From Alcaligenaceae bacterium (GTDB taxonomy: Bacteria; Pseudomonadota; Gammaproteobacteria; Burkholderiales; Burkholderiaceae_B), in NCBI GenBank assembly GCA_012735395.1, contig JAAYHN010000039.1, positions 1-40,305 of the forward strand: a DNA stretch of 40,305 nt, given 5' to 3'. Every line of letters begins with the position of its first letter. Position 1 is the first letter of the stretch. The notes beneath the pieces are model-generated. The model was not told the DNA's origin and made no database searches. It saw nothing but the letters and a program-made list of their open reading frames with translations. Below are positions 700 to 22,019 of the stretch, piece by piece. Both the position numbers and the translations under genes were made by a program.

Positions 700-1258
700 C
701 GCTCAATCATGCGTTGGGCCAGTTGGGGCTTGGTCTCAAATCCCACCGATGCAGGGATGCCTGCGCTGCGGCAGCGTGCCTCGTCCTCGATCCACTCTTT
801 GGGCAGGTAGAGTTGACGATCAATGAAGGCAGCACCCCCACAGCCGGCGTAGCATAAAAAGACACCCACCTGGCTGTTCTCAATGCGACCCGCCGTGCCG
901 CTGTACTGGCACTTGACGCCTGCCGAATGCCGTCCCTTCTTGAGAAAGCCGGTTTCATCGACAATCAGCACGGCATCTTCATCACCCAGGTGCTCGATCA
1001 CGTACTCACGCAAAATGTCTCGCGCCTGGTCGGCATCCCAGTGGAGTGGGCTCGTTCGAGCAAATGCTGGACTCCGTCAGGGGTGGCATCCCGAATGAAC
1101 TCGGCCAACTGCCAGCTATTTTTACGTTCAATGTTGCTCAACAGCCCCTGCAGATAACCCAATGCCCGTGTTCTGGGCTTAGATCGCCTGAACAGGTTTG
1201 CTAGGCGACTATGGAGATTCAACAGCTCTTGCAACCAGGGTTGCACCGATACCATCAT
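697..1258 (-). pseudogene. IS701-family transposase remnant, frameshifted and 3'-truncated
   Basis: Two minus-strand frames together give the N-terminal half of an IS701-family DDE transposase: WLQELLNLHSRLANLF...ERKNSWQLAE, then [17 protein letters not shown] with the first catalytic Asp region, [18 protein letters not shown], and LYLPKEW. The frame is broken at 1040-1049 by a five-base tandem duplication (AGTGG AGTGG on the plus strand); removing one copy restores ...[18 protein letters not shown]. The C-terminal half, including the remaining catalytic residues, is absent: similarity ends at IERALD near 697 and runs directly into the cytochrome tail. The element cannot encode a working transposase. 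Confidence 0.8.
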
Positions 1259-1582: not shown

Positions 1583-1635
1583 CGTATATCGCCAGTGAGT
1601 ATTTGATTTGCTTGATGTACCTGTCTGGCGCAGAA

Positions 1636-4920: not shown

Positions 4921-7900
4921 GTCTGCATGCAGAAGGATGGGCACAGCTGCGGCATGGCGGCCTGTTGATATCTCCGGCCAAACTGGATGAGTTCTTTCCA
5001 GATCCGGCCGCGGCCATGTCCGATTACCAGGCTGACAAGCTCCGCCGCGCCCTCACGGCCTTTGATGGCAGCAGCGAGACGCTGGGCAACCTGCTAGATT
5101 ACATCCTGCAGGACCTTTCGGGTCTGCCTGCCGAAGAGTGGCAAAAAGCCCAGGCTGTCGACAGCCGCTGGGCGGTACGCAGCTTCACTGGTGTTCTGAT
5201 CAAACCCCGCCGCCTGTGGCTGGGGCCAAACGGGGAAACCCTGGCCGTGTTCACCCCCGACGATAGCGGTTCGCGGCAGTTTGCCAGCCGTCTGGGTGTC
5301 GGGCGTTCAAAACAGTTGCTTGGCCGGGTGGTGGAATGGCTGCGTCGTACCGGGCAGGCACTGGCACTGGTCACTAATGGCCGGCAATGGCGGTTGGTGT
5401 ACGCCGGTGCCGATTACGAGGCCTGGTGTGAATGGGATATCGAACTTTGGTTCAGTGAGGGGCAGCCGGCAGCGCAAACGCTGATCTGGCGCACGCTGCT
5501 CAACCGCAGCACCCTGCTGGCAGAGCAAGGTCAGAACCGCTTGTTGCAGGCGATCAGCGCCTCACGCAAGGGCCAGGCTGAACTGTCCAATGTGCTGGGC
5601 GAGCGTGTTCGTCAGGGCGTCGAGGAGCTGATCACTGCCTCCCACGTCGCTATCGAGCAGGCCCAGCAGCAAGGGCAGGCTCACGATTACAAGGACCTGT
5701 ATGTGGCTGGCTCGCGCATCATCATGCGCTGCATCATTACCCTGTTTGCCGAAGCCCGCGGCCTGATGCCGGTCGACAACTCGATTTACCAGCAGGCCTA
5801 CAGTCTGGAAGGGCTGCGCCATCAGCTGGATCGGCGTGCCGGTGGCCGCGGCAACGAACGCTTGAGTCAGGGCCGTAGTGCTTGGCCGCGCCTGATTGGC
5901 TTGTTCAATCTGATCCACGAAGGCTCCGCCCATGAGCGCCTGAGTGTCCCGCAATACGGTGGCGCGCTGTTTGAGCCGGGCAGCCCTGCCAGTGACGACG
6001 GTATTTCGCGCGCGCTGGCGCTGCTGGAAAGCAGTCAGAACCTGGTCAGCGACCTGCAGGTACACAAGCTGCTGCGCCTGCTGACCCGCACCAAGATGAA
6101 AGTGCGTCAGGGCCGCAGCAGCCGCTGGGTGGATGCGCCGGTGGATTTCTCCACCCTGTCCTCGGAATACATCGGCATTCTCTATGAGGGCCTGCTTGAT
6201 TTTGAATTGAAGCAAGCCGCTGATAACGACCCGGTCATCTTCCTGGCGGTCGGCAACCAGCCGGCGCTGACCCTGTCACAGCTGGAAGCCATGGATGACA
6301 AGGCGATCAAGCAGCTGTTTGAGGCGCTGAAGAAAAAAGACTCCACCGGTGACGACAGTGAGGAGGAGGCGGATGAGGGCGTCGAAGAATCCGCTGACCT
6401 CGATGACAGCAGCGATGACGAGGCGGACGCCGTCGAAGACGACTCAGAGGAAGACACCAACACCAGTGACGACAGCGAAGAGCTGACCCTCAGCGAAGAT
6501 CATCTGCTGCGCGCCAACACCTGGCTACAGCATGCCGCGCAGATTGCCGGGCTGGTGAAAAAGCCCCGTGGCCGCAAAGCCAATACCGCTGCCGACGAAG
6601 CCCAGCAGGCGCTGGAAAAGGCCGCCAAGCAGCTCTGCGCCCGCATTGTGGCGCCCGGCCAGTTTTTTCTGGTGCGCTGGGGTGGGACCCGCAAGGGCGC
6701 GGGCACCTTCTATACCCGTCCGCAACTGGCCGCACCCACCGTGCGCCGTACCCTGCAGCCGCTGGCCTATGACGCCGTGCAAACCGAGACCGACCCGCGC
6801 ACCGGCCTGGACAGCGTGGTGGAGTGGGCACCGAAAACCCCGGAACAGATACTGGCCCTGAAAGTGTGCGATCCGGCCATGGGCTCTGGCTCCTTCCTCG
6901 CTGGCGCCCTGCGCTACCTCACCGAAGCGCTCACCCAGTCGCTGTTCCATCACAAACTGATCGAGCGCAGCGAAGACGGCGGTGTGCCGCGCATGGCCGA
7001 CGGCAAGCTGGCTGAACTGCTCAGCGACGAGATGACCAAGCTCAACCCCAAGGATGATGGTTTTGAAGAGGCCCTGCGCGCCCAGCTCAAGCGTCACATT
7101 GTGGAGCGATGCCTGTACGGTGTGGACCTTGATCCGCTGGCGGTGGAACTGGGGCGTATGGCGCTGTGGGTCGAAACCATGGATCGCGACCTGCCCTTTG
7201 GTTTCCTCGACCACAAGCTCAAGGTCGGTAACGCCCTGGTCGGTACCTGGTTCGATACCTACCGTGATTACCCGGCCATGGCCTGGCAGCGCGAGGGCGG
7301 TGACAAGGATTACCAGAAGAACAAGCCGGACAACCTGATCAACCACTGGTACGAGGACGCTAAAGGAAAGCGCAAGGGCGACGTCTTTACCGATGCGATC
7401 AAGGCGCGAGCCAAAGCCGTGCCTGAACAACTGCAGGCGCTGCTCAGCGGCCAGCTGACACTGGAAGGCGGGCTGGACGCGGCCAATGTGCACGACGAGC
7501 TGCTCAAGGTGTTCCGCAAACTGCATCGCCTGCCGGTGCATGAAAGTGAAAAGCGCGCCGAGATATACCAGCAGGAGGTGCTGAACAACCCGCACTACCA
7601 CGCCCTGAAAGCACGTATGGATCTGTGGTGTGCACTATGGTTCTGGCCGGGTGAGCAGATCGAGCTGGCCCCCTTGCCACGCGAGTTTGCCAACCCCACA
7701 GAGCAGGCACTGGCCATTGTCGCCGAGGTGGCGCGCCGCCAGCGCTTCTTCCACTGGGAGCTGGAGTTCCCGGATGTGTTCACCGCCAGCCAGGACGGTT
7801 TTGATGCGCTGTTGGGCAACCCGCCGTGGGAAATCCAGAAGCCCAACTCCAAGGAATTTTTCTCCAACCACGACCCGCTCTACCGCGCCTACGGCAAGCA

Positions 7901-9974
7901 GGATGCCTTGGCTAAACAACTGGAGTATTTCCGCGACTGGCCACAACTGGAGCACGGCTGGATTGCCTACAACGCCAACCTTAAGGGTATGTCCAACTGG
8001 GCGAAGTACGTGGGCAAGCCCTTTGGTGATTGGGTTACTGAAGACAAGGATGGCAAAAAGAGGCACGACCTGAATCTGGGGGGGCGCGGTAGGAACAGCT
8101 TCGAGGCCTCTGCAGCCGCACACAAAAAATGGCTGCAGCAGCGAAACAAGCACAAGGGCTTTGCCGATACTGCACACCCCTTCCTGTATCAGGGCTCGGC
8201 CGACCTGAACACCTATAAGCTGTTTCTGGAACTGAGTCACGCCTTGCTACGCAAGCAGGGACGGCTGGGCATGATCGTGCCCAGCGGTATCTATACCGAC
8301 AAGGGCACCACCGACCTGCGTGAGCTGTTCCTGGCCCAGTGCGACTGGCAATGGCTGTTTGGCTTCGAGAACCGTGAAGGTATTTTCGATATTCACCGTT
8401 CTTTTAAATTCTGCCCGCTGATTGTGCAGAAGGGCGGGCAAACCCAGGCCATCCGCGCCGCCTTTATGCACCGCAACGTGGATGACTGGGAGCAAGCCGA
8501 GCGCCATGTGCTGGCCTATCCGCGGGCGCGGGTGGAGGAGTTCTCGCCTTACTCCAAGGCCATTCTGGAAATCCGCAGCGAGCAGGACCTACGCGTGTTG
8601 CAGAAGATCTACGCCAACGGTGTGCTGCTGGGCGACCAGAGTGAAAACGGCTGGGGCATCAAGTACGCCCGCGAGTTCGATATGACGAACGACTCCAAGC
8701 TGTTCCCGCCGCGGCCCAAATGGGAGGAAAAGGGCTACCGCCCCGACGAATACGGCCACTGGCTAAAAGGCCCCTGGCAGGATTACCACGGCCCGCAGCA
8801 CATTCTGGATCGCGAGCCAGGGCTGGTGCTGTCGCGGGACGGGCAGCAGGCGCTGCGGGTGGATGAGATTGAGGATGTGGCGTTGCCGCTACTCGAAGGC
8901 AACATAATCGACCAGTTTCAGGTTTCCTCAAAAGGGTGGGTTTCCGGGAAAGGCCGCTCTGCTGTTTGGCGAGAAATCACCTCAGATAGTGAGGAGCTTG
9001 ATCCTCAGTATTTGATAAGCCTTGAAGATGCCGCCTCAAAAAAATACAAATCTGGAGAGATGGCTGGTCAGCCAAAATGGAGCCCCGTTCCAAAGGTAAC
9101 TTTTATTGACGTTACGTCCGCGACCAACGCACGGACTGCCCGAGCTACCTGTACTCCATTTTTCCCCTGTGGCAACACGTCAGCCGTGCTTGTTTCTCAG
9201 CAAAATGTATTTGCACTCGCAACCGCTATGAACTCCTTCGTTTATGACTTCGTTTCGAGAGCACGATGTGGTGGCTTGCACCTGAATTGGTTTGTGGTTG
9301 AGGAGTCTGTACTCCCTGATAAAGCAGTGGCGCCTTTTTTGGCCAGAATTGGCCAGGCCTTGATCGGCCACCTCAAGATTTTCAGCTTTACCCTTGAAGA
9401 CCATATCAAGGCTTTTGCTTTAATGCCGACGGAGCGCATTCGCCAGCGGTGCATATCGGAAGCCTTGATTGCGAACGCGTTGGCCCTTTCCAATGACGAG
9501 ATTGTTTATATCTTGGCTGATTGCGACCATCCCAGAAGGTCGCTTACGGACGCTTTCACTACTCAGCTTAACCCCAAAGGCTTCTGGCGTATCGACAAGG
9601 ACAAAGACCCGGAATTGCGCCATACCGTCCTGTCACTGATCGCCTTCCACGACCTGCAGGAGAAAGGTCTCGACGCCTTCCTCGCTCAGAATGACGGCGA
9701 AGGCTGGATGATTCCCGAGCAGCTGCGCCTGGCCGATTATGGTCTGGGCCATGATGACCGTGCGCAGGAATACCAGCCGGTGGCCTCGCGCCTTGGACCG
9801 CGCTTCTACGATTGGCAACTCAACGAGGATGTGGAGCGCTCCTGGCAGGAATGCGCCGCCCATGCCGAGCTGATCCGCCGCATTGTGCCGCTGCCCGACC
9901 CCGAACCCGCAGATGGCGCTCCCGAAGTGCGCGCCACCAATAAAAACGAATCACCGCAGGGAGCACTATTCTGA
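4917..9974 (+). CDS. drmMI-like: Large N6-adenine DNA methyltransferase, DrmMI-like / type IIG-like
   Basis: This 1685-residue protein carries SAM-binding motif I DPAMGSGSFL at about 652 and the catalytic NPPW motif at 968-971, as in Eco57I/PglX/DrmMI-type adenine methylases, plus GVDLDPLAVELGRMALWVE. The first ~450 residues are a large helical domain of unknown role, separated by a strikingly acidic low-complexity linker (residues ~475-525, mostly D, E and S). The C-terminal third should hold target recognition; the DNA at about 8880-9560 drops to 38-48% GC in sampled rows against about 62% just before it, suggesting an exchanged recognition segment. I see no restriction-nuclease motif with confidence. 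In DISARM the methylase marks host DNA so that partner proteins spare it. The gene overlaps the next one as TGATG. Confidence 0.85.
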   Translation: MSLHAEGWAQLRHGGLLISPAKLDEFFPDPAAAMSDYQADKLRRALTAFDGSSETLGNLLDYILQDLSGLPAEEWQKAQAVDSRWAVRSFTGVLIKPRRLWLGPNGETLAVFTPDDSGSRQFASRLGVGRSKQLLGRVVEWLRRTGQALALVTNGRQWRLVYAGADYEAWCEWDIELWFSEGQPAAQTLIWRTLLNRSTLLAEQGQNRLLQAISASRKGQAELSNVLGERVRQGVEELITASHVAIEQAQQQGQAHDYKDLYVAGSRIIMRCIITLFAEARGLMPVDNSIYQQAYSLEGLRHQLDRRAGGRGNERLSQGRSAWPRLIGLFNLIHEGSAHERLSVPQYGGALFEPGSPASDDGISRALALLESSQNLVSDLQVHKLLRLLTRTKMKVRQGRSSRWVDAPVDFSTLSSEYIGILYEGLLDFELKQAADNDPVIFLAVGNQPALTLSQLEAMDDKAIKQLFEALKKKDSTGDDSEEEADEGVEESADLDDSSDDEADAVEDDSEEDTNTSDDSEELTLSEDHLLRANTWLQHAAQIAGLVKKPRGRKANTAADEAQQALEKAAKQLCARIVAPGQFFLVRWGGTRKGAGTFYTRPQLAAPTVRRTLQPLAYDAVQTETDPRTGLDSVVEWAPKTPEQILALKVCDPAMGSGSFLAGALRYLTEALTQSLFHHKLIERSEDGGVPRMADGKLAELLSDEMTKLNPKDDGFEEALRAQLKRHIVERCLYGVDLDPLAVELGRMALWVETMDRDLPFGFLDHKLKVGNALVGTWFDTYRDYPAMAWQREGGDKDYQKNKPDNLINHWYEDAKGKRKGDVFTDAIKARAKAVPEQLQALLSGQLTLEGGLDAANVHDELLKVFRKLHRLPVHESEKRAEIYQQEVLNNPHYHALKARMDLWCALWFWPGEQIELAPLPREFANPTEQALAIVAEVARRQRFFHWELEFPDVFTASQDGFDALLGNPPWEIQKPNSKEFFSNHDPLYRAYGKQDALAKQLEYFRDWPQLEHGWIAYNANLKGMSNWAKYVGKPFGDWVTEDKDGKKRHDLNLGGRGRNSFEASAAAHKKWLQQRNKHKGFADTAHPFLYQGSADLNTYKLFLELSHALLRKQGRLGMIVPSGIYTDKGTTDLRELFLAQCDWQWLFGFENREGIFDIHRSFKFCPLIVQKGGQTQAIRAAFMHRNVDDWEQAERHVLAYPRARVEEFSPYSKAILEIRSEQDLRVLQKIYANGVLLGDQSENGWGIKYAREFDMTNDSKLFPPRPKWEEKGYRPDEYGHWLKGPWQDYHGPQHILDREPGLVLSRDGQQALRVDEIEDVALPLLEGNIIDQFQVSSKGWVSGKGRSAVWREITSDSEELDPQYLISLEDAASKKYKSGEMAGQPKWSPVPKVTFIDVTSATNARTARATCTPFFPCGNTSAVLVSQQNVFALATAMNSFVYDFVSRARCGGLHLNWFVVEESVLPDKAVAPFLARIGQALIGHLKIFSFTLEDHIKAFALMPTERIRQRCISEALIANALALSNDEIVYILADCDHPRRSLTDAFTTQLNPKGFWRIDKDKDPELRHTVLSLIAFHDLQEKGLDAFLAQNDGEGWMIPEQLRLADYGLGHDDRAQEYQPVASRLGPRFYDWQLNEDVERSWQECAAHAELIRRIVPLPDPEPADGAPEVRATNKNESPQGALF

Positions 9975-12900
9975 TGCTGAACCCCATTACCTACACCGAA
10001 GAGGTCGTCAGCGATTTTCTGCGCTACCAGCTCAGCACCTATGCCTTTGCCGATGAAAACCTCTATCGGCAGATGCGTGACCTGCTCAACCTGGAGCACA
10101 CCCGCAATACGCCGCTGCTGAAGGGGCCGTTTATCTCGCTGTCTCGCACCTTTATGAAAGGCGCCAGCCTGGAACAACTGGTCAAGGAAGGCGTGCTGCA
10201 TCCGCATATTCGCCAGCTGTCCCCGTACCCTGGAGCCTACCTGCACCAGGAGAAAGCCTTCCGTTCCATCAAGGATGGTCGTACCACCCTGGTAGCGACC
10301 GGTACCGGTTCGGGCAAGACAGAATCTTTCCTGCTGCCGATCATCAGCCGCTGCCTGCAGTTGCGTGATGAGGGCGCCGAGGCGGGTGTCACAGCGGTGA
10401 TTGTTTACCCGATGAACGCCCTGGCCGAAGACCAGTTGCAGCGCATGCGCGAGCTGCTGGTGGGCACCGGCGTCACCTTCGGCATGTATGTGGGCAAGAC
10501 CCCGCGTACCGAAGCGGACGTGAATGGTGTACGACTCGATCCTGGCAGCACGGTGGTGGATTACCGCAGCAAGTTGCAGCAGATGCAGCAGCAGAAGATC
10601 GACGTCGCCCTGCATCCCGCGGAGGAGCGGGTAAGCCGCGAAGCCATGCGCACCAACGGCCAGCAGCCGCGCATTCTGCTGACCAACGTCAAACAGCTGG
10701 AATTGCTGCTGACCCGCCAGCAGGATCTGGAGTTGTTCGATAGCGCCCGTCTGGAATTTATGGTGTTCGACGAGGCGCATACCTTTACCGGCGCCGGTGG
10801 TGCCGAAACCGCCTGCCTGATCCGACGATTGCGCTCCTACTGCGGCAAGGACGAGAGCAGCACGACCTGCATCGCCACCTCGGCCACCATTGCCGATCCG
10901 CGTCGCGGCATCGAGGCTGGCCGCGAGTTTGCCAGCCGATTTTTTGGCATTGATGGCCAAAATGTCGAGCTGATTGGCGAGGCCTACGAAGAGGACATCT
11001 GGGGCGAGCCGCGCAGCGTCAGTGCACCCTTCAATGGCGATCAGGCCATGCAGCTGAAAACCGTGCTGGAAATGCTTGGCACCCTGGACAAAGCCGAGGT
11101 TGATGCTGCTGACCTGCAAGCCTTCCGCATCTGGTTCCAGACCACCAGCGGCATGCGCATGGCCGGCGATAACTGGCGTGAAGCGCTGAACCAATGGCTC
11201 AGCCACAACGAGGTGGTCTACCAGATTGCCGAGGCCCTGCGCCGGCCGCGGGCCGTCGCCAGTCTGTTGGATGATTTGAACGCAGCCCTGGGTCGCCCGA
11301 TTACCGAAGAGGAAATTTTGATCTGGCTGGCGCTGGGCGCTGCGGCACGAAATGGCGACCGCCCCCTGCTACGCCCTGTGGTGCATGGCTTTGTGCGCGG
11401 GGTTAGCGGTGCGGTGGTGACTTTCGAGGAAGGCCAGGGTCAGCCTGCCAAGTTGTGGCTGTCTGCCGAAGATGCCATCAGCGACGATGCAGGCCGTGAT
11501 ACAGAGTTGAAGCCCTTCCCGCTATCCAGTTGCACCACCTGCGGCCAGCATTATTTCGAGCACGGATTGGAAGACTTCAACTTCACCGGCAGCGAACCGG
11601 GTGGCGGCTCCGCTGAAGGCAAGAACCGCGCTTGGCGGGCAACCGACATTACCCTGGGTGGGGTGCGTGCGGTTTCGTTGGACCACCAGGTGGGTTCGGA
11701 TGGGGAGGAGGAGCCTTCGCGCACCGAAGTGCTGTTTGTCTGCCGCTACTGCGGCACCACCCACGACCGGCAGTTGCCGGAGTGCGTCGGCTGCGGCCGT
11801 AACAAGGTGCTGAAGGCGCTGCATTTCGTTCAGCAGAAAGAAGACCAGATTGGCCGATTGACTCGTTGTGTGTCCTGCGGTGCCCAGGGCCGCCGAGTAA
11901 CCGGCAATTACCGAGAGCCTGCCCGTCCAGTGCGTGCTACCGGTGTGGCCGACGTGCATGTACTAGCGCAAAGTATGATCCACCGAGCCGAACGTAAGCG
12001 CTTACTGGTATTTGCTGATAATCGCCAAGATGCTGCCTTTCAGGCTGGCTGGATGCAGGATCGCTCGCGCCGCTATCGTCTGCGGGAGTTGATCTACAAG
12101 AAACTGAGTGCCGGTGCGGTGTCGGTCAGTGATCTGGTGCTGTGGCTGGATCAGTACCTGGATGCCGACGACGAGTTGTCGCGCGCCTTGATACCTGAAG
12201 TCTGGCGGGTGGAGAGCAAGTCGGAAACCAGTCTGGCGCATGCCGAGGAGCGCAAATGGTTCCTGCGTGCTCAGTTGCTGCGCGAGCTGACGTTAGGGGC
12301 ACGGCAAAGTACTGGTTTGGAGCCGCTGGGCCGACTGAAGATTCGTTACCGGGGACTGGATGAGGCACACCCGATGATTCAGAAATGGGCCGCAAGCCTG
12401 GGGTGCTCGGCGCACGATCTGCGTGAAGGCGTTGCCTCGTTGCTAGATGCCGCCCGTTCCCGGCGTATGCTGTTCGATCCCATTACCCGCATGTATTCCA
12501 AGTACTGGTTGGATGGCGAGAAAGAGGTGCTACGGGGTTATTTACCTAACATGCGCGGTGTGCCTGAGGCGCTGGTATTCGAACGTGATGGCCAGCACGA
12601 CAAGGGCCGCATCAAGCAATGGTTCAGCAACTACGACAGTGCAGCCAAGCAGGCAGCTGGCGCCTGGGGTGTGCCGCATGATCAGATTCAAGCATTTTTG
12701 CAGGACGTATGGCGCTTGTGTAGTGATGAACTGGAGTTACTCACCCAGGTTCAGCTAAAAGGTGCCCGTGGCAAGAACCTGCCGGGCTGTCACGGCGCCA
12801 CCCAGGTGCACGTGGATAATCTGATGCTGGTGCCCGCCACCGGCATGTACCGCTGCCAGACCTGCCGTCGGCTGCATGCTCGGGTCAACCCGGGGATGAC

Positions 12901-15900
12901 CTGTATGGCCTGGCGTTGTAACGGCAAGATGGTGTTTGAGGAGGAAAACTCGGACAACTACGATTTGCTGCTGCTGGACCAGGAGTTTTCCATGCTGCGT
13001 GCCCGCGAGCATTCGGCACAGATTCCAGGCCCTGAACGTGAGCGCATCGAGAATGCCTTCAAGGGCGAAAGTGAGCGTATCAATACGCTGGTGTGTACAC
13101 CCACCCTGGAAATGGGCGTCAACATCGGTGCCCTGGACGCCGTGCTGATGCGCAACGTACCGCCATTGCCGGCCAACTACTGGCAGCGTGCCGGCCGGGC
13201 TGGGCGCCAGTTCCGCATGGCGCTGGATCTGACCTACGCCCGAACGACCAGCCATGACCGTGCCTACTTCAACGAGCCATTGAAAATGCTCGAAGGGTTG
13301 GTGGAGCCCCCCAGCTTCAACCTACGCAACCCGGTTATGGTGGCCAAGCATGTCAACGCGACGGTGCTGACCACGCTGCTGCAGATGTTGCGCTCCAACA
13401 GCTTGCCAGACACACAGGCAAGGAATCTGGAGCAGGCGCTGGGTACTTGTTTGCCAGGCCAGATCCGGCCTTATCTGTTTACTGCCGAAGGCATGGTGCG
13501 TGAGGCACCTTTGTCGGTTACGCCACTGGCTCAACAAATTGCTGCGCACCAACCCAGCCTGTTAAGTGCGGTATTGAAGGCCTTCCAGCAGGGTTGGCCT
13601 GCAGGCGATAGCGAAGTGGTCAGCCGTGAACAGCTGGAATCGGTCATCGGAGGTTTTGCCGATCAGTTGCAAGGGGTGATCGATCGCCTGTTCCAGCGCT
13701 TGCAGTGGGCGCTCGCCCAGCTGGAGCGACTGCGTAAGGTCGCCGCAGGCAAGGGTGCGCTGGATGCCGACGAAGAGGCGCTGCGTGCCCGTTGCGAGCG
13801 TCTGGTGAAAAAACTCAAGGGTGAGGCGCGCCGCAACCGCAATCAGGCTGAAGGCATCGACGATACCAACACCTACGGCGTGCTGGCGGCTGAAGGCTTC
13901 CTGCCGGGTTATGGCCTGGATACCGGTGCGGTGACTCTGACCCATGTGGCGCCGCGCCACAGCAGCGATATCAGCGATTGGGAGCTGCGCCGCAACACGG
14001 CGCTGGCCGTGCGCGAGTACGTGCCCGGCAACTTGATCTATGCCAACGCTCACAAGTTCGTGCCGCGGCATTTTCATCTGATTCCGGAAGAACCGCTGAC
14101 CTTTGCCGTGGATGTCGCCAGCGAATCCGTTCAAGAGACAGGACCATCTTCCAAAGCTGGCAGTGAAGTCAGCTCAATGTCGATCTCGCAGATTCCCGGT
14201 GTTGCTATCTGCGATGTGGACGCGCCGCACCATTCCTACATATCGGATGACGAGGACTACCGCTTTCAGATGTCCGTGGCTGTTTTTGCCCAGGATCAGG
14301 GGCGGCATTCCGGCGGCAGTCTTTACGAGTGGGGTAAATCCCAGCTGCAACTCAAACACGGTATGCACATGCGTCTGGTCAATGTCGGCGCTGCCTCCCA
14401 GGTACGCTCTGGCACCTTGTTGGGCTATCCCTTATGTCTGGTCTGCGGCGCCAGCCGCTCGGCCATGAGCAGTCAGCAGGAACTCGACAAGTTTAACGAG
14501 CACCATGTCGAACGATGCGGGCGGCCGATTCAGAACATTGCTTTTTACGCTGAGGTGGTGGCTGATGCACTGGTGCTGCAGGACTGTGCCTCCCAGGAAA
14601 CAGCCTACAGCGTCATGGAGTCGCTGCGACAGGGTGCGGCCGATGTGCTGGATATGGAAATTTCCGACCTGCAGGTACAGGTGATTGGCAAGCCGGGCAG
14701 TGAAACGGTCGATGCCTTGCTGTATGACCCTATGCCGGGAGGTTCTGGCCTACTGGAGCAGTTGCTGGCTCACTGGGCAGATGTGGTGGCCGCAGCCCGC
14801 CGACTGGCCGAAGAGTGCCCATCGGCCTGCGAGGCATCCTGTGTGGATTGTCTGCAGCATTTCCGTAACTCCTTCTATCACGACAAGCTGAACCGCCATA
14901 CGGCACTGGAAGCATTCAATGACTGGGGCGATACCCTGAGTTTCAGCCACGAGCTGGCGCCAGTTTTGCCGGATGAAACCCTGACCCAGCAACCGGGTAA
15001 TCCCCCTGAACAGCAATTGGTGGCGCTGCTCAAAGCCGCCGGTATGCCGACATTCGAAACAGAGAGCCCGATAGCGCTTTCTGGGGGTATCACCACCCGC
15101 CCGGATGTGTATTTCCACGAACCCAACGACCAGTACGAAGGTGTCTGCATTTATCTGGATGGTATGAGTGAGCACTTGCATGGCAACGCCCAGACAGCCG
15201 CCAAGGACCGCCAGATCCGTCAGGAGCTGCTGAACACTGACTACGAAGTCATCGAGATCCAGTTCCAGGAGCTGTACGACAAAACGGTGATGCGTGAGCA
15301 TATGCGCCGGATTGCTCGCGCCGTGGTTGGCAGGGCCAGAGCCAAGGAGCTGGCTGACGATGATGCATGGTTTGATCAAGCCGGGAGGGTAACTACTGAG
15401 CCTAATGCGGTAAAAAGCAATGTGCTGCCCTTCAGAACGGTCAGCCCCTCTGATTCTGCCTTTGAGCCCTACGCTAATTGCGTACCTCTGATAGGGCTGC
15501 AGGCTGCCGCAGGCGCCTGGAGTCATGAGCAGGACAGCCTGGTGGCACTGGCTGACTATGCTGAGGAGTGGGTGAGCATTGATAACCACAAGCTGGAGCC
15601 AGGGATGTTCTTGGCTCAGGTCGTGGGGCATTCCATGGAGCCACTGGTACCTGATGGTAGCTACTGCCTGTTCCGGCCAGTCCCCGCCGGCAGCCGGCAG
15701 GGGCGAAAGTTATTGGTTTGGCACGCAGGGGTAACCGATGCCGACACTGGGGGCGAGTACACGTTGAAGGTGTACAGCAGTGAAAAAGTTGCCCACGCTG
15801 ACGGAGAATGGCAGCACGACCGCATTACGCTGAAACCCTTGAATCCTGTTTATCAGCCACTGTTCCTGGAGCCTAAAGATGAAGGATCTGTTCGAGTGAT

Positions 15901-15928
15901 TGCTGAGTTTGTAAAGGTGGTGGGATGA
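9974..15928 (+). CDS. Giant YprA/DUF1998-family helicase with C-terminal Vsr-like nuclease and LexA/S24-like autoprotease segments
   Basis: This 1984-residue protein has, in order: Walker A GTGSGKTE (110-117), DEAH (266-269), TSATI near 302, several Cys-pair zinc-ribbon segments between ~520 and 640 and near 960, motif IV LVFADNRQDAAF near 676, CTPTLEMGVN near 1040, QRAGRAGR near 1072, then the DUF1998/MZB region with CLVCGAS (~1486) and CEASCVDCLQHFRNSFYH (~1620). Two further modules follow. Residues ~1691-1792 fit a Vsr/DUF559-type nuclease pattern (RPDVYF with D1711, CIYLDG with D1729, KDRQIRQELL, YEVIEIQ). Residues ~1835-1984 fit an S24 peptidase (PLIGLQAAAGAW, GHSMEP with S1887, YTLKVY with K1932). 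YprA/MrfA, DrmA/DrmB and DruE are relatives. It is coupled to its neighbours by one- and four-base overlaps. The helicase/DUF1998 call is firm; the nuclease call is moderate; the S24 call is strong by motif. Confidence 0.85.
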   Translation: MLNPITYTEEVVSDFLRYQLSTYAFADENLYRQMRDLLNLEHTRNTPLLKGPFISLSRTFMKGASLEQLVKEGVLHPHIRQLSPYPGAYLHQEKAFRSIKDGRTTLVATGTGSGKTESFLLPIISRCLQLRDEGAEAGVTAVIVYPMNALAEDQLQRMRELLVGTGVTFGMYVGKTPRTEADVNGVRLDPGSTVVDYRSKLQQMQQQKIDVALHPAEERVSREAMRTNGQQPRILLTNVKQLELLLTRQQDLELFDSARLEFMVFDEAHTFTGAGGAETACLIRRLRSYCGKDESSTTCIATSATIADPRRGIEAGREFASRFFGIDGQNVELIGEAYEEDIWGEPRSVSAPFNGDQAMQLKTVLEMLGTLDKAEVDAADLQAFRIWFQTTSGMRMAGDNWREALNQWLSHNEVVYQIAEALRRPRAVASLLDDLNAALGRPITEEEILIWLALGAAARNGDRPLLRPVVHGFVRGVSGAVVTFEEGQGQPAKLWLSAEDAISDDAGRDTELKPFPLSSCTTCGQHYFEHGLEDFNFTGSEPGGGSAEGKNRAWRATDITLGGVRAVSLDHQVGSDGEEEPSRTEVLFVCRYCGTTHDRQLPECVGCGRNKVLKALHFVQQKEDQIGRLTRCVSCGAQGRRVTGNYREPARPVRATGVADVHVLAQSMIHRAERKRLLVFADNRQDAAFQAGWMQDRSRRYRLRELIYKKLSAGAVSVSDLVLWLDQYLDADDELSRALIPEVWRVESKSETSLAHAEERKWFLRAQLLRELTLGARQSTGLEPLGRLKIRYRGLDEAHPMIQKWAASLGCSAHDLREGVASLLDAARSRRMLFDPITRMYSKYWLDGEKEVLRGYLPNMRGVPEALVFERDGQHDKGRIKQWFSNYDSAAKQAAGAWGVPHDQIQAFLQDVWRLCSDELELLTQVQLKGARGKNLPGCHGATQVHVDNLMLVPATGMYRCQTCRRLHARVNPGMTCMAWRCNGKMVFEEENSDNYDLLLLDQEFSMLRAREHSAQIPGPERERIENAFKGESERINTLVCTPTLEMGVNIGALDAVLMRNVPPLPANYWQRAGRAGRQFRMALDLTYARTTSHDRAYFNEPLKMLEGLVEPPSFNLRNPVMVAKHVNATVLTTLLQMLRSNSLPDTQARNLEQALGTCLPGQIRPYLFTAEGMVREAPLSVTPLAQQIAAHQPSLLSAVLKAFQQGWPAGDSEVVSREQLESVIGGFADQLQGVIDRLFQRLQWALAQLERLRKVAAGKGALDADEEALRARCERLVKKLKGEARRNRNQAEGIDDTNTYGVLAAEGFLPGYGLDTGAVTLTHVAPRHSSDISDWELRRNTALAVREYVPGNLIYANAHKFVPRHFHLIPEEPLTFAVDVASESVQETGPSSKAGSEVSSMSISQIPGVAICDVDAPHHSYISDDEDYRFQMSVAVFAQDQGRHSGGSLYEWGKSQLQLKHGMHMRLVNVGAASQVRSGTLLGYPLCLVCGASRSAMSSQQELDKFNEHHVERCGRPIQNIAFYAEVVADALVLQDCASQETAYSVMESLRQGAADVLDMEISDLQVQVIGKPGSETVDALLYDPMPGGSGLLEQLLAHWADVVAAARRLAEECPSACEASCVDCLQHFRNSFYHDKLNRHTALEAFNDWGDTLSFSHELAPVLPDETLTQQPGNPPEQQLVALLKAAGMPTFETESPIALSGGITTRPDVYFHEPNDQYEGVCIYLDGMSEHLHGNAQTAAKDRQIRQELLNTDYEVIEIQFQELYDKTVMREHMRRIARAVVGRARAKELADDDAWFDQAGRVTTEPNAVKSNVLPFRTVSPSDSAFEPYANCVPLIGLQAAAGAWSHEQDSLVALADYAEEWVSIDNHKLEPGMFLAQVVGHSMEPLVPDGSYCLFRPVPAGSRQGRKLLVWHAGVTDADTGGEYTLKVYSSEKVAHADGEWQHDRITLKPLNPVYQPLFLEPKDEGSVRVIAEFVKVVG

Positions 15929-18132
15929 GTGTGGCGCACCGTGCAACCTGGTTCGTCGGGGCCAGTTACGGCGGTACTGATGACCAGAGGCCGCGATTTC
16001 TTGCAGATGGAATTTGGGAGAATGGCTATGACGACAAACTCCTCGATGTAGTGCGTTCCATGCGCCCGGGAGAGCGGATCGCCATCAAGTCGTCTTATAC
16101 GCGAAAACACGGTCTGCCTTTCGATAGCCGAGGTCGAGCGGTTTCGGTTATGGGCATCAAGGCGGTCGGCACCATCACTGAAAATCTGAACGACGGGAAG
16201 AGGGTGAAGGTGGACTGGGCCAAGGTCGAGCCGGTACGAGAATGGTACTTCTACACTCACCGAGGGACCGTCTGGCGTGTGCTTCCCGGCGAATGGATGA
16301 ATGATGCGCTGATTGCATTTGCGTTTGACGGCCAGCCGCAGGATGTGGATCGCTTTCGAAACCAGCCCTTTTGGCGTGAGCGTTATGGCACGACTTCGCC
16401 AGAAAAGCAGCGCTTCGAGTGGACGGACTTCTACGAGGCAGTGGCCGAAAAGCTGCTGGCCCACGCAGACGATCGAACTCCGCTCATCGAGGGCATCCAC
16501 GAGATCGCGTCCCGGGTGCCGGGGCTGACCTATCTCCAGGATAAGTTTCCCGATGGAACCAGTGGTCCGCTGCGGGACATTTGCCCATTCACCACGATGG
16601 GCACCTTTAACCGGTCCATGACCGATGCCAACCGCAAGACCATCGCGGGTGAACTTGCCAAGTTGCTGGGTGTGACGGTGCCGGTCCCGCCTTCATTCGA
16701 AGGCATTCCCGTTCTTAACAACCAACGTTCCTGGTTTTTTGCCTATGCCGACAAGCGTGGTGCGGGCGACATCGACGCGCTATGGAAGGTATTCGTTGCC
16801 GCGAGCAAGATGGTCGATGGCGACCAGTTGGACACTCGCGATGCCTTCATCCGGGCTTATGACGAGGCAACCCAAGTATGGGGTGTCGCATGGAACCTTT
16901 CGACAGGTCTCTACTGGGCGCATCCGTGGGAATTCCTGACCTTGGATAGCCAGTCGCGCCACTACATCAACAAGCGGCTCGGCCTGAATGTCGCCATGAG
17001 TGGTCAGCAGGGCCCATGTGATGGTCAGGCCTATTTGAAGCTGCTGGACGATTTGCGTTCGCGCTTCGGCGAAGACGGCTATCCGGTCCACAGTTTCCCG
17101 GACTTGTCGCTTGCGTCCTGGATGTACAAAGACACGGTTGACGAGCCTGTGCCGGCTGGCGATATTGGTACCAATGCCGGAGCAGAACAGGAAACTGAAG
17201 GTGAAGTTCGCGAAGCCTTTCAGGTTGCAGCGCCAATCGTTCCCTACTCGGTGGAGGATATCCTCAAGGACGGCTGTTTCCTGGAGCGGACCGAGATTGA
17301 CCGCTTGCTCGATCGTCTGCGCACAAAAAAGAACCTCATCCTTCAGGGGCCTCCGGGCACGGGCAAGACCTGGCTAGCCAAACGGCTCGCGTTCGCGCTC
17401 ATGGGCCAGAAGGACGACAGCAAGGTCCGTGCAGTGCAGTTCCACCCCAACCTGTCTTACGAGGACTTTGTTCGAGGGTGGCGCCCCACTGGCGAAGGCA
17501 AGTTGTCGCTGGCGGACGGTGTCTTCATGGAAGCTATCAAGGCCGCTTCGAAGGACCCTTCGTCGAAGTTTGTCGTGGTGATCGAGGAGATCAACCGTGG
17601 AAACCCAGCGCAGATCTTCGGTGAGTTGCTGACGCTGCTTGAGGCCGGCAAGCGGACACCCAACGAAGCGCTGGAACTCTGCTATCCCGATGCAGACGGC
17701 AAACGACGTCCCGTCCATATTCCCGAGAATCTCTATGTGGTCGGCACCATGAATATCGCCGACCGATCACTTGCACTGGTCGATCTGGCATTGCGTCGCC
17801 GCTTTGCTTTCGTTGGGCTGGAGCCAAGACTGGGCCAGGTTTGGCGGGAGTGGGTGGTCAAGGAGTGTGCTGTCGATCCGGGCTTGGTCGCGGATATCGA
17901 GCGCCGTATCGCCGAGCTGAACGACCAGATCGCGGCGGACGCGCGCCTTGGCAAGCAATTCCGAATTGGTCACAGCTATGTGACCCCTGCACATCGACTG
18001 GAAGCCGGAGACACGAAGAAGTGGTTCCTGCAGGTCGTGGAAACGGAGATCGGCCCGTTGCTGGATGAATACTGGTTCGACGCGCCCGACGAAGCACAAA
18101 AGGCGATTGCACGGCTGACGCAGGGCTGGTGA
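15925..18132 (+). CDS. mcrB-like: McrB-like AAA+ GTPase with an N-terminal EVE/PUA-like domain
   Basis: The C-terminal half is an McrB-type AAA+ motor: Walker A GPPGTGKT at 475-482, Walker B VVVIEEINRGN near 551-561, and the McrB hallmark GTMNIADRSLALVDLALRRRF near 607-627. In McrBC this motor hydrolyses GTP and drives the McrC nuclease. The first ~130 residues (ATWFVGASYGG...RFLADGIWENGY...KSSYTRKHGLPF...VMGIKAVGTI) resemble an EVE/PUA-like fold of the kind used by many McrB relatives to read a modified base. A helical middle domain follows (~270-360). Its specificity is unknown and may be something other than 5-methylcytosine. The four-base overlap upstream (ATGA) and the overlap with mcrC downstream place it in the defence operon. 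Confidence 0.85.
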   Translation: MSVAHRATWFVGASYGGTDDQRPRFLADGIWENGYDDKLLDVVRSMRPGERIAIKSSYTRKHGLPFDSRGRAVSVMGIKAVGTITENLNDGKRVKVDWAKVEPVREWYFYTHRGTVWRVLPGEWMNDALIAFAFDGQPQDVDRFRNQPFWRERYGTTSPEKQRFEWTDFYEAVAEKLLAHADDRTPLIEGIHEIASRVPGLTYLQDKFPDGTSGPLRDICPFTTMGTFNRSMTDANRKTIAGELAKLLGVTVPVPPSFEGIPVLNNQRSWFFAYADKRGAGDIDALWKVFVAASKMVDGDQLDTRDAFIRAYDEATQVWGVAWNLSTGLYWAHPWEFLTLDSQSRHYINKRLGLNVAMSGQQGPCDGQAYLKLLDDLRSRFGEDGYPVHSFPDLSLASWMYKDTVDEPVPAGDIGTNAGAEQETEGEVREAFQVAAPIVPYSVEDILKDGCFLERTEIDRLLDRLRTKKNLILQGPPGTGKTWLAKRLAFALMGQKDDSKVRAVQFHPNLSYEDFVRGWRPTGEGKLSLADGVFMEAIKAASKDPSSKFVVVIEEINRGNPAQIFGELLTLLEAGKRTPNEALELCYPDADGKRRPVHIPENLYVVGTMNIADRSLALVDLALRRRFAFVGLEPRLGQVWREWVVKECAVDPGLVADIERRIAELNDQIAADARLGKQFRIGHSYVTPAHRLEAGDTKKWFLQVVETEIGPLLDEYWFDAPDEAQKAIARLTQGW

Positions 18133-19298
18133 TGACCGCCGTCGCAGAGCAGGTGGAAAGTGCATCCATGAGCGCTGAGGGGTTCATCGGACGCATTCCG
18201 GTGCGCAACCTCTGGCTGCTGATGCTCTACGCCTCTGACCTGTTCCGCACTCGCGGCATCGGCAAGATCGGCTTGGAAGACAGCCCGGACGATCTACCGG
18301 ATCTAGTCGCGGAGATCCTTGCCCACGCGGTTGAGGTGCGACAGCGTCGCCGCTTGAGTCTTGGATATCGATCTCGTGATGCAGTCATCAATCGCGTGCG
18401 TGGCCGGATCGACGTCTTGACCACCGAACGCCATCAGTTGATGGATAGAGGCCTGGTGGCGTGCCGGTTCGACGAACTCACCATCGACACCCCACGCAAT
18501 CGTTTTGTCCGAGCAGCCTTGGAGTCCATCTCCAGAATTGTTCAGAGGAAGGACATTGTCCATCGGTGCCGCGCACTTGCGAGTGACATGAAGGCAATGG
18601 GTGTATCAGGGGCCGCGCCAACCCGCACCCAGATGAGTACCGACCGTTTCGGCCGTAACGATGCGGACGACAGATTCATGGTGGCAGCCGCAAAGCTGGC
18701 GCTCGATCTGGCGCTGCCTACGGAGGCGTCTGGTGCGAATGTGCTTTCTCTGCCAGACCGAGAGGCGACTTGGGTGCGCCGTTTATTCGAGCGAGCTGTC
18801 GGCGGCTTCTACGAAGTCGTATTGAGCCCGCAGGGCTGGCGTGTGTGTTGCGGCGGGACACTGTCCTGGCAAATCGAGCAGAAGACGGCGGGAATCGACA
18901 AGATTCTGCCGACGATGCGAACGGATATCGTGCTCGAAAACCCGTCGACCGGGCGGCGGATTGTCATCGATACCAAGTTCACCTCGATCGTGACGAGTGG
19001 TTGGTACCGTGAGGAAACCCTGCGCAGCGGATACGTGTACCAGATCTATGCCTATCTGCGCTCCCAGGTTGGGTGCGGCGATGCGCTTGCAGATCGCGCG
19101 AGCGGATTAATGTTGCATCCTGCGATCGGCCAGATGGTGGACGAGACAGTGCTGATCCAGGGGCACGCCATTCGGTTCGCCACTGTGGATTTGACGGCAA
19201 CTCCTGCGGTCATTCGAGCGCAGCTGCTGCGACTCTGCGCGCCAGACCGCGCGATGCAGATCATGGATTCTCCCTTCGAGAAAGCTCGTACGGACTAA
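18132..19298 (+). CDS. mcrC-like: McrC-like nuclease subunit
   Basis: The protein starts with the family hallmark GRIPVRNLWLLMLYASDLF and has ~388 residues, close to usual McrC length. A PD-(D/E)XK-type centre is visible in the C-terminal half: MRTDIVLEN followed by GRRIVIDTKFTS, giving an Asp and a D-x-K about a dozen residues apart (K near 282). McrC supplies DNA cleavage when bound to the McrB ring. The ORF track begins at GTG 18129, but ATG 18132, which overlaps the mcrB stop as TGATG, is equally plausible; ATG 18168 is a third option. The 3' end runs directly into the tail of a decayed integrase lying on the other strand, so the last residues could have been altered by that junction. Confidence 0.85.
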   Translation: MTAVAEQVESASMSAEGFIGRIPVRNLWLLMLYASDLFRTRGIGKIGLEDSPDDLPDLVAEILAHAVEVRQRRRLSLGYRSRDAVINRVRGRIDVLTTERHQLMDRGLVACRFDELTIDTPRNRFVRAALESISRIVQRKDIVHRCRALASDMKAMGVSGAAPTRTQMSTDRFGRNDADDRFMVAAAKLALDLALPTEASGANVLSLPDREATWVRRLFERAVGGFYEVVLSPQGWRVCCGGTLSWQIEQKTAGIDKILPTMRTDIVLENPSTGRRIVIDTKFTSIVTSGWYREETLRSGYVYQIYAYLRSQVGCGDALADRASGLMLHPAIGQMVDETVLIQGHAIRFATVDLTATPAVIRAQLLRLCAPDRAMQIMDSPFEKARTD

Positions 19299-19650
19299 CC
19301 GCCTTCTCCCTGTTCGCATCCAGAAAATCCGCCCACCCCCACCACAGCATCATCAGCCGCCTTTCCTCCAAGTGCTCGGCCTTATGAATATACGCAGCCC
19401 GGACGGAGTTCCGTTCCTGGTGGCTCATTTGCCGTTCAACTGCATCTCTCGATCACAAGGCCGATTCGATCAGAGCGCTACATGCCACGGTTCGAAAACC
19501 ATAGCCGCACACCTCAGACTTGGTGTCATAGACCATGGTCCGAAGCGCCTTGTTGATGGTGTTCTCACTCATGGCTGTTTGGGAATTATTGTCGCTCGTA
19601 AAAATCAGTTCTTTATCACCCGACCAATTATAAATGCGTCTCATTAATAT
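19262..19650 (-). pseudogene. C-terminal remnant of a second P4-type tyrosine integrase
   Basis: Minus-strand reading gives MSENTINKALRTMVYD, GYGFRTVACSALIESAL, then an in-frame TGA where the family usually has Trp, then SRDAVERQMSHQERNSVRAAYIHKAEHLEERRLM and LWW. A four-base insertion in the GGTGGGG run near 19330-19340 shifts the frame, after which ADFLDANREKAVSPYELS resumes. This is the C-terminal third of a DUF4102/P4-type integrase carrying one nonsense and one frameshift mutation, with the catalytic His position read as Tyr. Its last codons overlap the mcrC 3' end on the opposite strand. It has the same orientation as the intact integrase just upstream, so this was probably the integrase of an earlier or nested island. 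Confidence 0.75.
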
Positions 19651-19709
19651 TTTTGCTTTTATACCCGACGGGGCGGCAGGGGACATGCACTTCTTGGCGT
19701 ACATAAGCC

Positions 19710-20918
19710 TCACATCAACGGCGCCAGTTTTCTGGCCAGTAGTTCCAACGCCTCCCTTCGTTCATTGAAGTAGTCGTGACGGTTGTAGATATCCTCCACG
19801 CCCTTCAGTGTGTGGTTAAGGCATCGCTCGGCAACATGGCCAGGCACCCCTAATGAGGCCAACAGGCTGCGGCACGTGCGTCGCAGGTCATGGACGGTGA
19901 AGTGTTCAAGATCACCCATCTTGTTCTCAGGCTGTACTGCTCTTCCTGGCTCTCTCCCAAACAGTTTGGATATCGCCCGATTTAAAGTGTCCGAGCCCAT
20001 GTGGGGCATTTTGCTTGCTCGTCTGTTAGGGAAGACATAAGAGGAACCAAAAGCGCGCACCTTGAGTTCGTTCAGCCATTGGATAGCCAGGTCTGGCAGG
20101 GGGATGTCAATGGCTACACGGGATTTGCTGCGCTCCTGAGGCAGATACCAAACCTTTTCCTCCAGATCGAACTCACTCCACCTTGCTTCAGTTAGCTCGG
20201 CTTTTCTGACTCCGAGCAAGACCAAGAGCGCACAGGCCAAGTAGTTGTCCCGGGTGAAGCTATCTGATTCTTCCCGGAATATCTTGAAGATGAAGGCCAG
20301 CTCTTCGGTGGTGAGCGCTCTGTCTCTGCTTTTTTCTATGCCGCCCGCATCGTCTACGGCGAAGGCGCTGGCCGGGTTGCTGGCAATCAAATCCAGCTTG
20401 ACGGCATGGTTAAACAGTTGCTTGCAGTACATCAACGCATCGTTGGCGGTGCTCGGTCTATTGCTTTCCGCTATGTTTCTCAAGACCTGCCTGATGTCGC
20501 GGCCCGTGACAGCATCTGGCTTCATTTGCCCAATGACAGGTGAAATTTCTTTGGTGTAGACCCGAAAGGGGATGTGGTGGTGCTTCAGACGCTTGACGTT
20601 GCCTTCGTGCCAGTCGTTGAACAGGTCATCAACACATTTGATGTCGCTATAGCTGGCTCTTTTCTTTTCAACAAGAGGGTCCAGACCCTCACGAAGCTGC
20701 TTCATCTGTAAAGCAGCGGCTAGCCGTGCATCAGCAAGAGACAGGTCATCCACGTTACCCAGCGTCATTTGCTTGCGCTTAGCGTTGGTCGTGAAGCGCA
20801 GCGCCCAATAGGAGCGTCCCCGGGCTGGTACTACAAGGTATAGGCCGTTGCCATCAGCAAAATGTCCGGGTGGTCCTTTGAGCTTTGCACTAACTGACTT
20901 GCTTGTAAGTACTGCCAT
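19710..20918 (-). CDS. int: P4-type tyrosine integrase (DUF4102 N-terminal domain)
   Basis: This 402-residue site-specific recombinase presumably inserted the island. The N-terminal DUF4102 domain (FADGNGLYLVVPARGRSYWALRF, GNVDDLSLADARLAA) is followed by the SAM-like core-binding domain and the catalytic domain. Catalytic residues are visible: first Arg in LLGVRKAEL, HDLRRT, a later CLNHT His position, and the nucleophile Tyr in EDIYNRHDY. Nothing appears broken. Genes of this kind normally lie at one end of the island and read inward from the attachment site; here the start faces yicC and the repeats at 20934-21096, so that end is probably the junction. GC is lower than in the defence operon. 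Confidence 0.9.
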   Translation of the reverse strand: MAVLTSKSVSAKLKGPPGHFADGNGLYLVVPARGRSYWALRFTTNAKRKQMTLGNVDDLSLADARLAAALQMKQLREGLDPLVEKKRASYSDIKCVDDLFNDWHEGNVKRLKHHHIPFRVYTKEISPVIGQMKPDAVTGRDIRQVLRNIAESNRPSTANDALMYCKQLFNHAVKLDLIASNPASAFAVDDAGGIEKSRDRALTTEELAFIFKIFREESDSFTRDNYLACALLVLLGVRKAELTEARWSEFDLEEKVWYLPQERSKSRVAIDIPLPDLAIQWLNELKVRAFGSSYVFPNRRASKMPHMGSDTLNRAISKLFGREPGRAVQPENKMGDLEHFTVHDLRRTCRSLLASLGVPGHVAERCLNHTLKGVEDIYNRHDYFNERREALELLARKLAPLM

Positions 20919-20933
20919 AACGTCTTCCTCTAA

Positions 20934-21026
20934 ATGTACTCACCACTGGCCGCAGAGAATTTCTGCTTATTGAGCATTGTACTCACCATTGTACTCACCA
21001 CTTGGTGCTTGATTCTGGTGAGTGCA
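20934..21026. repeat. Cluster of TGTACTCACCA repeats, candidate integrase arm sites
   Basis: ATGTACTCACCA lies at 20934-20945, TTGTACTCACCA is tandemly duplicated without a gap at 20977-20988 and 20989-21000, and an inverted copy TGGTGAGTGCA (one mismatch) lies at 21016-21026. All sit within about 110 bases upstream of the integrase start. Multiple short repeats, some inverted, near an integrase gene fit arm-type integrase or excisionase binding sites. The role is inferred. Confidence 0.6.
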
Positions 21027-21033
21027 GGTAGAC

Positions 21034-21096
21034 CTTGGTTGACTAGGAAATACGTTATCTAATTGATTTTTATAATAAAAATTGAGCTTGGTTGAC
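21034..21096. repeat. Direct repeat CTTGGTTGAC, candidate attachment core
   Basis: CTTGGTTGAC occurs exactly at 21034-21043 and 21087-21096, 53 bases apart, between the integrase-side repeats and the 3' end of yicC. It may mark a duplicated attachment core. The stretch between is AT-rich and includes a self-complementary TTTTTATAATAAAAA. I found no tRNA or tmRNA end here, so the target would be intergenic. Confidence 0.4.
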
Positions 21097-21107
21097 CCCG
21101 GTTTCCA

Positions 21108-22019
21108 TCACTCAATATTCTGCGCCTGTTCGCGCAATTGCTCTATATACAGTTTCAAATCTATCACGGCCTGGGTAATTTCCAGCGAGCTGGATTTTGA
21201 GCCCAGCGTATTTACCTCACGGTTCATTTCCTGGAACAGGAAATCAAGACGCTTGCCGGTACTTTGCTTATTGTTTTTGGTTTTGCCTTCAAGCAATAAT
21301 TGCAATTCTTTCAAATGAGAGTGCAGGCGGGTGATTTCTTCAGCAACGTCTATACGCAAAGAAAACAGGGCAGATTCACTGGCAATACGGGTAGACAGTT
21401 CTTCACCCGATAAATGCTGTAAACCATTGGGGCAGGCCGCCTCCAGGGTTTCCTGCAGCTTTGTGGCCAGCTTTGTACGATATTCGGCATGAATATCAGG
21501 CAGGATCGCTTCAACTTTTTTAACAATATCTGCCATCGCCTTGGCATAGTCTTTCATGGCGCTACCCAGACGTTCACCCTCGCGAAGCCGGGCGGTAATG
21601 AATTCTTCTATGGCCAGGCGGGCGGTTTCAAGGCATTGCACCTGCCATTCGGTACCCGAATCGGGTTTGGCTTTCTGGCTTGGCCAGGTCACCAGATCAA
21701 TTAACTTTGGGGTTTCTGTTTCGGGCAAAACGGCACGGACATCTGCCAGCAGAGTGGCAATGTCTTTTAACAATTCAGGTTCAATGGAAAGGGCCGTACC
21801 AGCCTGGTTTTTAATAAAGGAAACACGGACTTCCAGTTTGCCCCGGTTGATTTTTCCGGTAAGCAATTCACGCAGGCCATTTTCTGTCTGGCGTAGTTCA
21901 TCGGGAATGCGAAAGTTCAAATCCAGGTAACGGCTGTTAACACTTTTTAATTCAACAGTGATGGAGCCAAGCTCCGATTCGGTTTGTGCGCTGCCAAAAG
22001 CGGTCATGCTTTGAATCAT
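21108..22019 (-). CDS. yicC: YicC family protein (YloC/YicC endoribonuclease family)
   Basis: This 303-residue protein starts MIQSMTAFGSAQTESELG, the conserved YicC N-terminus, and ends with the DUF1732 region (RIASESALFSLRIDVAEEITRLHSHL...GKRLDFLFQEMNREVNTLGSKS). YicC and its Bacillus relative YloC are reported to act on RNA, and E. coli YicC is linked to turnover of small RNAs. Length and both conserved ends are normal, so it is intact. In many Burkholderiales yicC is followed by gmk, rpoZ and spoT; here its downstream side is the island end instead. It diverges from rph across about 125 bases that must contain both promoters. Confidence 0.93.
   Translation of the reverse strand: MIQSMTAFGSAQTESELGSITVELKSVNSRYLDLNFRIPDELRQTENGLRELLTGKINRGKLEVRVSFIKNQAGTALSIEPELLKDIATLLADVRAVLPETETPKLIDLVTWPSQKAKPDSGTEWQVQCLETARLAIEEFITARLREGERLGSAMKDYAKAMADIVKKVEAILPDIHAEYRTKLATKLQETLEAACPNGLQHLSGEELSTRIASESALFSLRIDVAEEITRLHSHLKELQLLLEGKTKNNKQSTGKRLDFLFQEMNREVNTLGSKSSSLEITQAVIDLKLYIEQLREQAQNIE

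Follow-up and report, generated by a model that had tools for sequence, protein, structure and literature searches.

This locus of an Alcaligenaceae bacterium raises the question of what the short repeats crowded between an integrase gene and yicC are for, and where the adjacent island was inserted. The window, that is the whole stretch of DNA analysed, is 40,305 nucleotides long. A preliminary description of it had taken the repeats, which lie within 163 bp (20934-21096), for arm and core sites of an integrase that targets an intergenic position rather than a tRNA gene. We arrived at a related reading with another core and another target, to which we give a probability of roughly 0.92: the region would be attL together with the integrase-side P' arm of a yicC-end island, with a 9-bp core, arm-type sites and IHF-like sites, in a decayed copy. 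The features of the window are listed below.

63 to 694: chromosomal flank (start of a TctC-type gene, intergenic DNA, 3' end of a cytochrome c gene), matching G002, G004 and G008
695 to 1258, minus strand: truncated DDE_5 transposase debris at the putative deletion junction
1613 to 21119: surviving part of the island; from ~1613 to the core, 95-96% identical in DNA to an Alcaligenes faecalis element
19710 to 20918, minus strand: tyrosine integrase gene (int; Arm-DNA-bind_3, central and catalytic domains in Pfam)
20935 to 20945, minus strand: int-proximal putative arm-type site TGGTGAGTACA, 9-11 of 11 bases conserved in ten relatives
20978 to 20988, minus strand: second putative arm-type site in the tandem pair; the 12-bp period is conserved, and the pair recurs at attR in the elements of five relatives
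20990 to 21000, minus strand: putative arm-type site, first of the tandem pair; 12-bp period, +127/128 from the first core base in the attP of four relatives
21016 to 21026, plus strand: inverted putative arm-type site TGGTGAGTGCA, ACYCACCA kept in 10 of 10 aligned relatives
21034 to 21043, plus strand: CTTGGTTGAC copy 1, not core; 3-10 of 10 bases kept in relatives
21056 to 21068, minus strand: predicted IHF-like site AATCAATTAGATA, 12 of 13 to consensus
21087 to 21096, plus strand: CTTGGTTGAC copy 2, not core; 3-10 of 10 bases kept, no longer intact even in the A. faecalis relative with a 99% identical integrase
21108 to 21119, minus strand: element-supplied last yicC codons AAT ATT GAG TGA, same in related elements
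21108 to 22019, minus strand: yicC, the target gene (Pfam YicC-like N and C domains)
21120 to 21128, minus strand: att core CAGGCGCAG, the block that attL and attR have in common in three yicC insertions and in the secondary insertion of A. faecalis
21121 to 21127, minus strand: predicted 7-bp overlap AGGCGCA, inside the att core

The repeats themselves were present as described. TGTACTCACCA occurs exactly three times (20935-20945, 20978-20988 and 20990-21000), the last two copies in tandem with a 12-bp period, and the whole window holds no further copy on that strand. Its inverted relative is TGGTGAGTGCA, and the 10-bp direct repeat CTTGGTTGAC occupies 21034-21043 and 21087-21096, so that the cluster lies between int and the yicC stop codon (21108-21110). 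When the 163 bp were resampled with a first-order Markov model, an 11-mer occurring three times was seen in 0.05% of trials and a repeated 10-mer in 2%; a repeated 10-mer was also found in 57 of 2008 segments of 163 bp taken across the window. The TGTACTCACCA set is therefore far above chance, whereas CTTGGTTGAC alone is not. Among ten aligned relatives the TGGTGRGTA sites were conserved (6-11 of 11 bases), and CTTGGTTGAC as a 10-mer was not (3-10 of 10). No sigma-70 promoter for int was found in the repeat cluster on the int strand.

A separate observation concerns a degenerate TCNA register under the CTTGGTTGAC copies, in which TCNA recurs 10 bp on and the pair recurs 53 bp away. In the aligned relatives (20980-21110) it falls at offsets 0, 10, 53, 63 and 83 on the minus strand from 21095, between the core and the arm sites, and eight diverged elements show little variation at its T, C and A positions. 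It may be a site for an accessory factor; having been noticed post hoc, it is only a lead.

The integrase is a tyrosine recombinase with the R-K-H-R-H-Y catalytic set, and R238, K265, H343, R346, H369 and Y378 were invariant in nine homologs. A search of 269 same-family genomes found it in ten other Alcaligenaceae genomes, the carriers including Alcaligenes faecalis AU14, Pusillimonas minor, Pusillimonas sp. T2 and Neopusillimonas maritima. In eight of the ten, int directly follows the yicC end, oriented as yicC is and with the same repeat layout; one of these eight (G185) has an in-frame stop in int. G195 keeps an int fragment only, again after the yicC end, and the A. faecalis element, whose integrase is 99% identical, sits in a helicase gene and not at yicC. 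The same layout was seen in Thiopseudomonas and another gammaproteobacterium; phages and plasmids yielded only homologs below 60% identity. Across the phylum (399 genomes sampled), ten further int loci with 38-67% identity adjoin a yicC-type 3' end, one of them (L105) with only a yicC-like tail sequence and no whole yicC gene. A 12-bp tandem pair upstream of int is detectable in most of these phylum-wide loci, with letters that differ between lineages (TGGTGAGTA, TGGTTACCA, TGGTGACAA, GTGCACCCA), while the yicC-end target is kept and the 12-bp tandem layout often is. The evolution of arm recognition may be uncoupled from the target and may keep elements with a common landing site insulated from one another, a tentative idea to which we give somewhat less than even odds.

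Two further observations were made beside integrase genes. In the window, a truncated ORF (19453-19713) overlaps the int stop; its longer version in A. faecalis (148 aa) resembles the C-terminus of a second tyrosine integrase, and the ORF is perhaps the remnant of an earlier element. On contig C8 of G152 (L066/L067, ~18300-19300), an attR end abuts a second, 5'-truncated yicC-type integrase, which suggests that elements inserted at one site in tandem or in succession.

Comparison with relatives placed the att core, CAGGCGCAG, in the final codons of yicC, just beyond the 163-bp interval. The same-genus genomes G002, G004 and G008 provided empty sites. At the core position same-genus empty sites read CAGGCGCAG, CAGTCGCAG or CAATCGCAG; in those three genomes the core is followed by GAATAG or GAATAA, and where the element supplies its own codons, empty sites in the genus have AATATTGAATAG or AATATTGAATAA. 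The empty sites of the three genomes contained neither the arm repeats nor CTTGGTTGAC. The assignment of CTTGGTTGAC as core fails because it is missing from these empty sites, and it is not conserved in relatives either. Repeats without the integrase were not met with: the window's own genome has the tandem pair only here and two empty-site regions that were scanned had none, so the arm reading survives. What stands of the preliminary description is thus an attachment-site region with TGTACTCACCA as arm-type repeats and a target that is not a tRNA gene; the core is not CTTGGTTGAC and the target is not intergenic, since the core lies in yicC.

The extent of the exchanged block was read from elements with both ends. 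Direct attL/attR repeats flank the element in G208, G013, G182 and G091. A second copy of the yicC end lies at the far end of the elements of G208 (24.4 kb), G013 (22.6 kb) and G182 (51.3 kb), and another on a contig of G152. Rejoining the flanks of yicC insertions gave a yicC ending in QAQNIE-stop. The A. faecalis element (28.1 kb) occupies a secondary site inside an SNF2 helicase gene, and its attL and attR have only CAGGCGCAG in common. Joining its flanks at CAGGCGCAG produced an open, continuous helicase frame; a 173-residue query spanning the junction aligned over 99% of its length with a plasmid helicase from Comamonas, at 69% identity. A crossover in AGTGAT was also considered for this insertion and rejected, as the shifted junction breaks the helicase frame. 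By this comparison the secondary insertion pins the putative crossover to the 9 bp of CAGGCGCAG. Because rejoined flanks restore the genes in relatives, the target is the last yicC codons, and the DNA from AATATTGAGTGA onward belongs to the element. At the attL of the window the gene product is preserved, the yicC frame ending in QAQNIE-stop with the core within the 3' coding end; here the core is inferred from relatives, as the window's own attR is missing. G185, G186 and G151 show differences within the core or immediately to its right, and the edge of the exchanged block may therefore vary. The helicase-gene insertion in A. faecalis AU14 adjoins a gene for a single-strand-binding-type protein (L055, attR flank near 10270), and this locus possibly lies inside another mobile element.

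We then rebuilt attP by rejoining the element ends in four relatives, with positions counted from the first core base. Arm sites fell at -93, -81, +127/128, +139/140 and +172 to +183, with the inverted site at +102/103. Far ends were readable in five elements, and each carried a tandem pair spaced by 12 bp; the pair invariably preceded the core by 93 bp, and an IHF-like site lay between the two. Arm-type sites thus flank the core on both sides in the attP of relatives; the window keeps the int-side arm only. An inverted repeat surrounds the predicted 7-bp overlap, matching at 6 of 6 positions in G091 and G013 and at 4 of 6 in G208 and G182; the overlap reads AGGCGCA, or AGGCCCA in G182. At an identical attR position the 13-bp IHF consensus was matched exactly in four of five elements and with one mismatch in the fifth, the chance being ~1% for each. 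On the int side the IHF-like site was perfect in three relatives at the same place, one mismatch short in the window, and poor in others. These IHF-like sites are sequence matches and only predicted. The TGTACTCACCA repeats are most plausibly arm-type sites of the neighbouring tyrosine integrase.

The window lacks the other end of the island. The A. faecalis element runs ~8.6 kb further, to attR, and that part is gone here. No attR was found in the window, and the whole of its own genome (334 contigs, ~91% complete) yielded neither a second tandem arm pair nor a match to the DUF932 backbone gene. The non-cargo part of related elements carries DUF932, YqaJ, RadC, Gp3-like (recombination directionality factor-like), YagK/YfjJ and AlpA genes, none of which occurs in the window; no excision factor of the RdfM/AlpA type was found among the window ORFs. 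In G208 and G013, AlpA (PF05930) lies within the element part missing from the window, with the DUF932 gene as its neighbour. At 694/695 the transposase fragment meets the 3' end of the cytochrome c gene, a gene that lies ~6 kb beyond yicC in G008. The simplest reading of this comparison is that one or more deletions removed the far end of the island and the adjoining chromosome. Because attR and the excision-factor candidates are lost, this copy is probably immobile, as judged from known lambda-type integrases. It is best called a decayed, one-ended remnant and not an intact member of its family, since two of the features looked for, attR and an excision factor, are missing.

Three other candidates around this end were rejected. 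A guanylate kinase gene beside yicC was considered as the missing junction, and the genome gave a single, weak Pfam match, located on a different contig. A stretch at the transposase end (582-600), proposed as a hidden attR, is the 3' end of the chromosomal cytochrome c gene and also occurs in G008. The hairpin at 501-532, considered as the displaced terminator of yicC, falls within sequence that in G008 comes after the cytochrome c gene. Inward of the junction, 1325-1504 is a remnant of the start of a helicase-like gene (FRDGQEDAIRHIVKGKGRLLVV), to which two further genomes of the family have DNA matches of 89-91%. The cargo operon (1603-19298), which is shared with A. faecalis AU14, encodes a DrmD-like SNF2 helicase, a type IIG/DrmMI-like methyltransferase, a DruE-like helicase with MrfA Zn-binding and S24 domains, a McrB-like AAA protein and a McrC-like protein; it matches parts of several defence systems and no single one.

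Other explanations of the locus were weighed against this evidence. An intergenic insertion with CTTGGTTGAC as core, as in the preliminary description, draws on the two copies of CTTGGTTGAC in the junction region, but a repeated 10-mer of this type turned up in 2% of resampled intervals, and CTTGGTTGAC is neither conserved in relatives with the same arm layout nor present in empty sites or in the relatives' attR; we regard this version as hardly credible. It is very unlikely, if less so, that the TGGTGAGTAC repeats are mainly operators controlling int, bound by a repressor or by the integrase as its own repressor, and not arm-type sites. They do sit immediately upstream of int, the closest copy being 16 bases ahead of the start codon, yet the same tandem TGGTGAGTAC pair recurs at the far element end, where int needs no promoter, at a constant distance of 93 bp from the core. 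The two roles are not exclusive, and arm-bound integrase could also repress int. An assembly chimera at the left junction, with the true island intact, is the least improbable of these and still improbable: the genome is fragmented into 334 contigs and IS sequence lies at the junction, but the left flank is the chromosomal neighbourhood expected beyond yicC, and neither a second tandem arm pair nor the DUF932 gene was recovered elsewhere in the genome, the assembly being only ~91% complete.

On the preferred reading, an island at the yicC end, the tyrosine integrase would recombine the 9-bp CAGGCGCAG, with AGGCGCA as overlap, in the fourth- to sixth-last sense codons of yicC. The integrating element would swap the rest of yicC for its own codons N-I-E-stop, and as these are resupplied the YicC protein would be unchanged. 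The N-terminal domain of the integrase would bind the TGGTGAGTACA repeats as arm-type sites, with a tandem pair of 12-bp period on each side of the core and the inverted and third copies on the int side, and bending at the IHF-like sites that separate arms from core would fold the DNA into an intasome. Binding, bending and the exact overlap are modelled on known lambda-type integrases; target, core, layout and decay are shown by the comparison with relatives. A deletion flanked by IS debris would have taken attR, the AlpA and Gp3-like excision-factor candidates and apparently ~6 kb of chromosome. The result would be a restriction/defence-type island apparently frozen in place through loss of its far end. 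More broadly, the complete attP (core, overlap, arm and IHF-like sites) is predicted at base level for yicC-end integrases, which should make yicC-end elements easy to delimit in genomes.

In lambda-type integration, attP is bipartite, with arm-type sites on both sides, IHF sites, and core inverted repeats around a 7-bp overlap. The rebuilt attP resembles it in its two-sided arm-type sites and IHF-like sites, and may do so in core inverted repeats around a predicted 7-bp overlap, which match fully in two of the four relatives; it differs in that the Alcaligenaceae arms are 12-bp tandem pairs and the integrase is of the Arm-DNA-bind_3 type. Among the papers searched, none joined yicC and an integrase with arm-type sites or Alcaligenes, or yicC and genomic islands with Alcaligenaceae. 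Islands at the yicC 3' end are established in Gammaproteobacteria (PMC8409611, PMC5397120, PMC8978831), among them MGIVflInd1, MGIVmi1 and SGI1-like elements with IntyicC (PMC8409611, PMC5397120), and the yicC-specific GI21, GISpuPO1 and GISspANA3 of Shewanella, which have an AlpA-family excisionase (PMC8978831). We file the present family, by description, as a new member among these known islands. New are the family in Alcaligenaceae, the attP anatomy and the evidence of decay in this copy. Like MGIVflInd1, MGIVmi1 and the SGI1-like elements, the family has a tyrosine integrase at the yicC 3' end (PMC8409611, PMC5397120), and an excision-factor gene lies toward attR in published SGI1-like elements and intact Alcaligenaceae relatives alike. 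Unlike them, it has Alcaligenaceae hosts, a DUF932/YqaJ/RadC/Gp3-like/YagK backbone and restriction-type cargo. Shewanella GI21 was found within another island, a secondary site at which its att repeats are only 9 bp long (PMC8978831); the A. faecalis element likewise occupies a secondary site with a 9-bp att, a likeness drawn from the published description. The two differ in that xis lies near int in GI21 (PMC8978831), whereas the AlpA gene lies a few kb from attR in the Alcaligenaceae elements.
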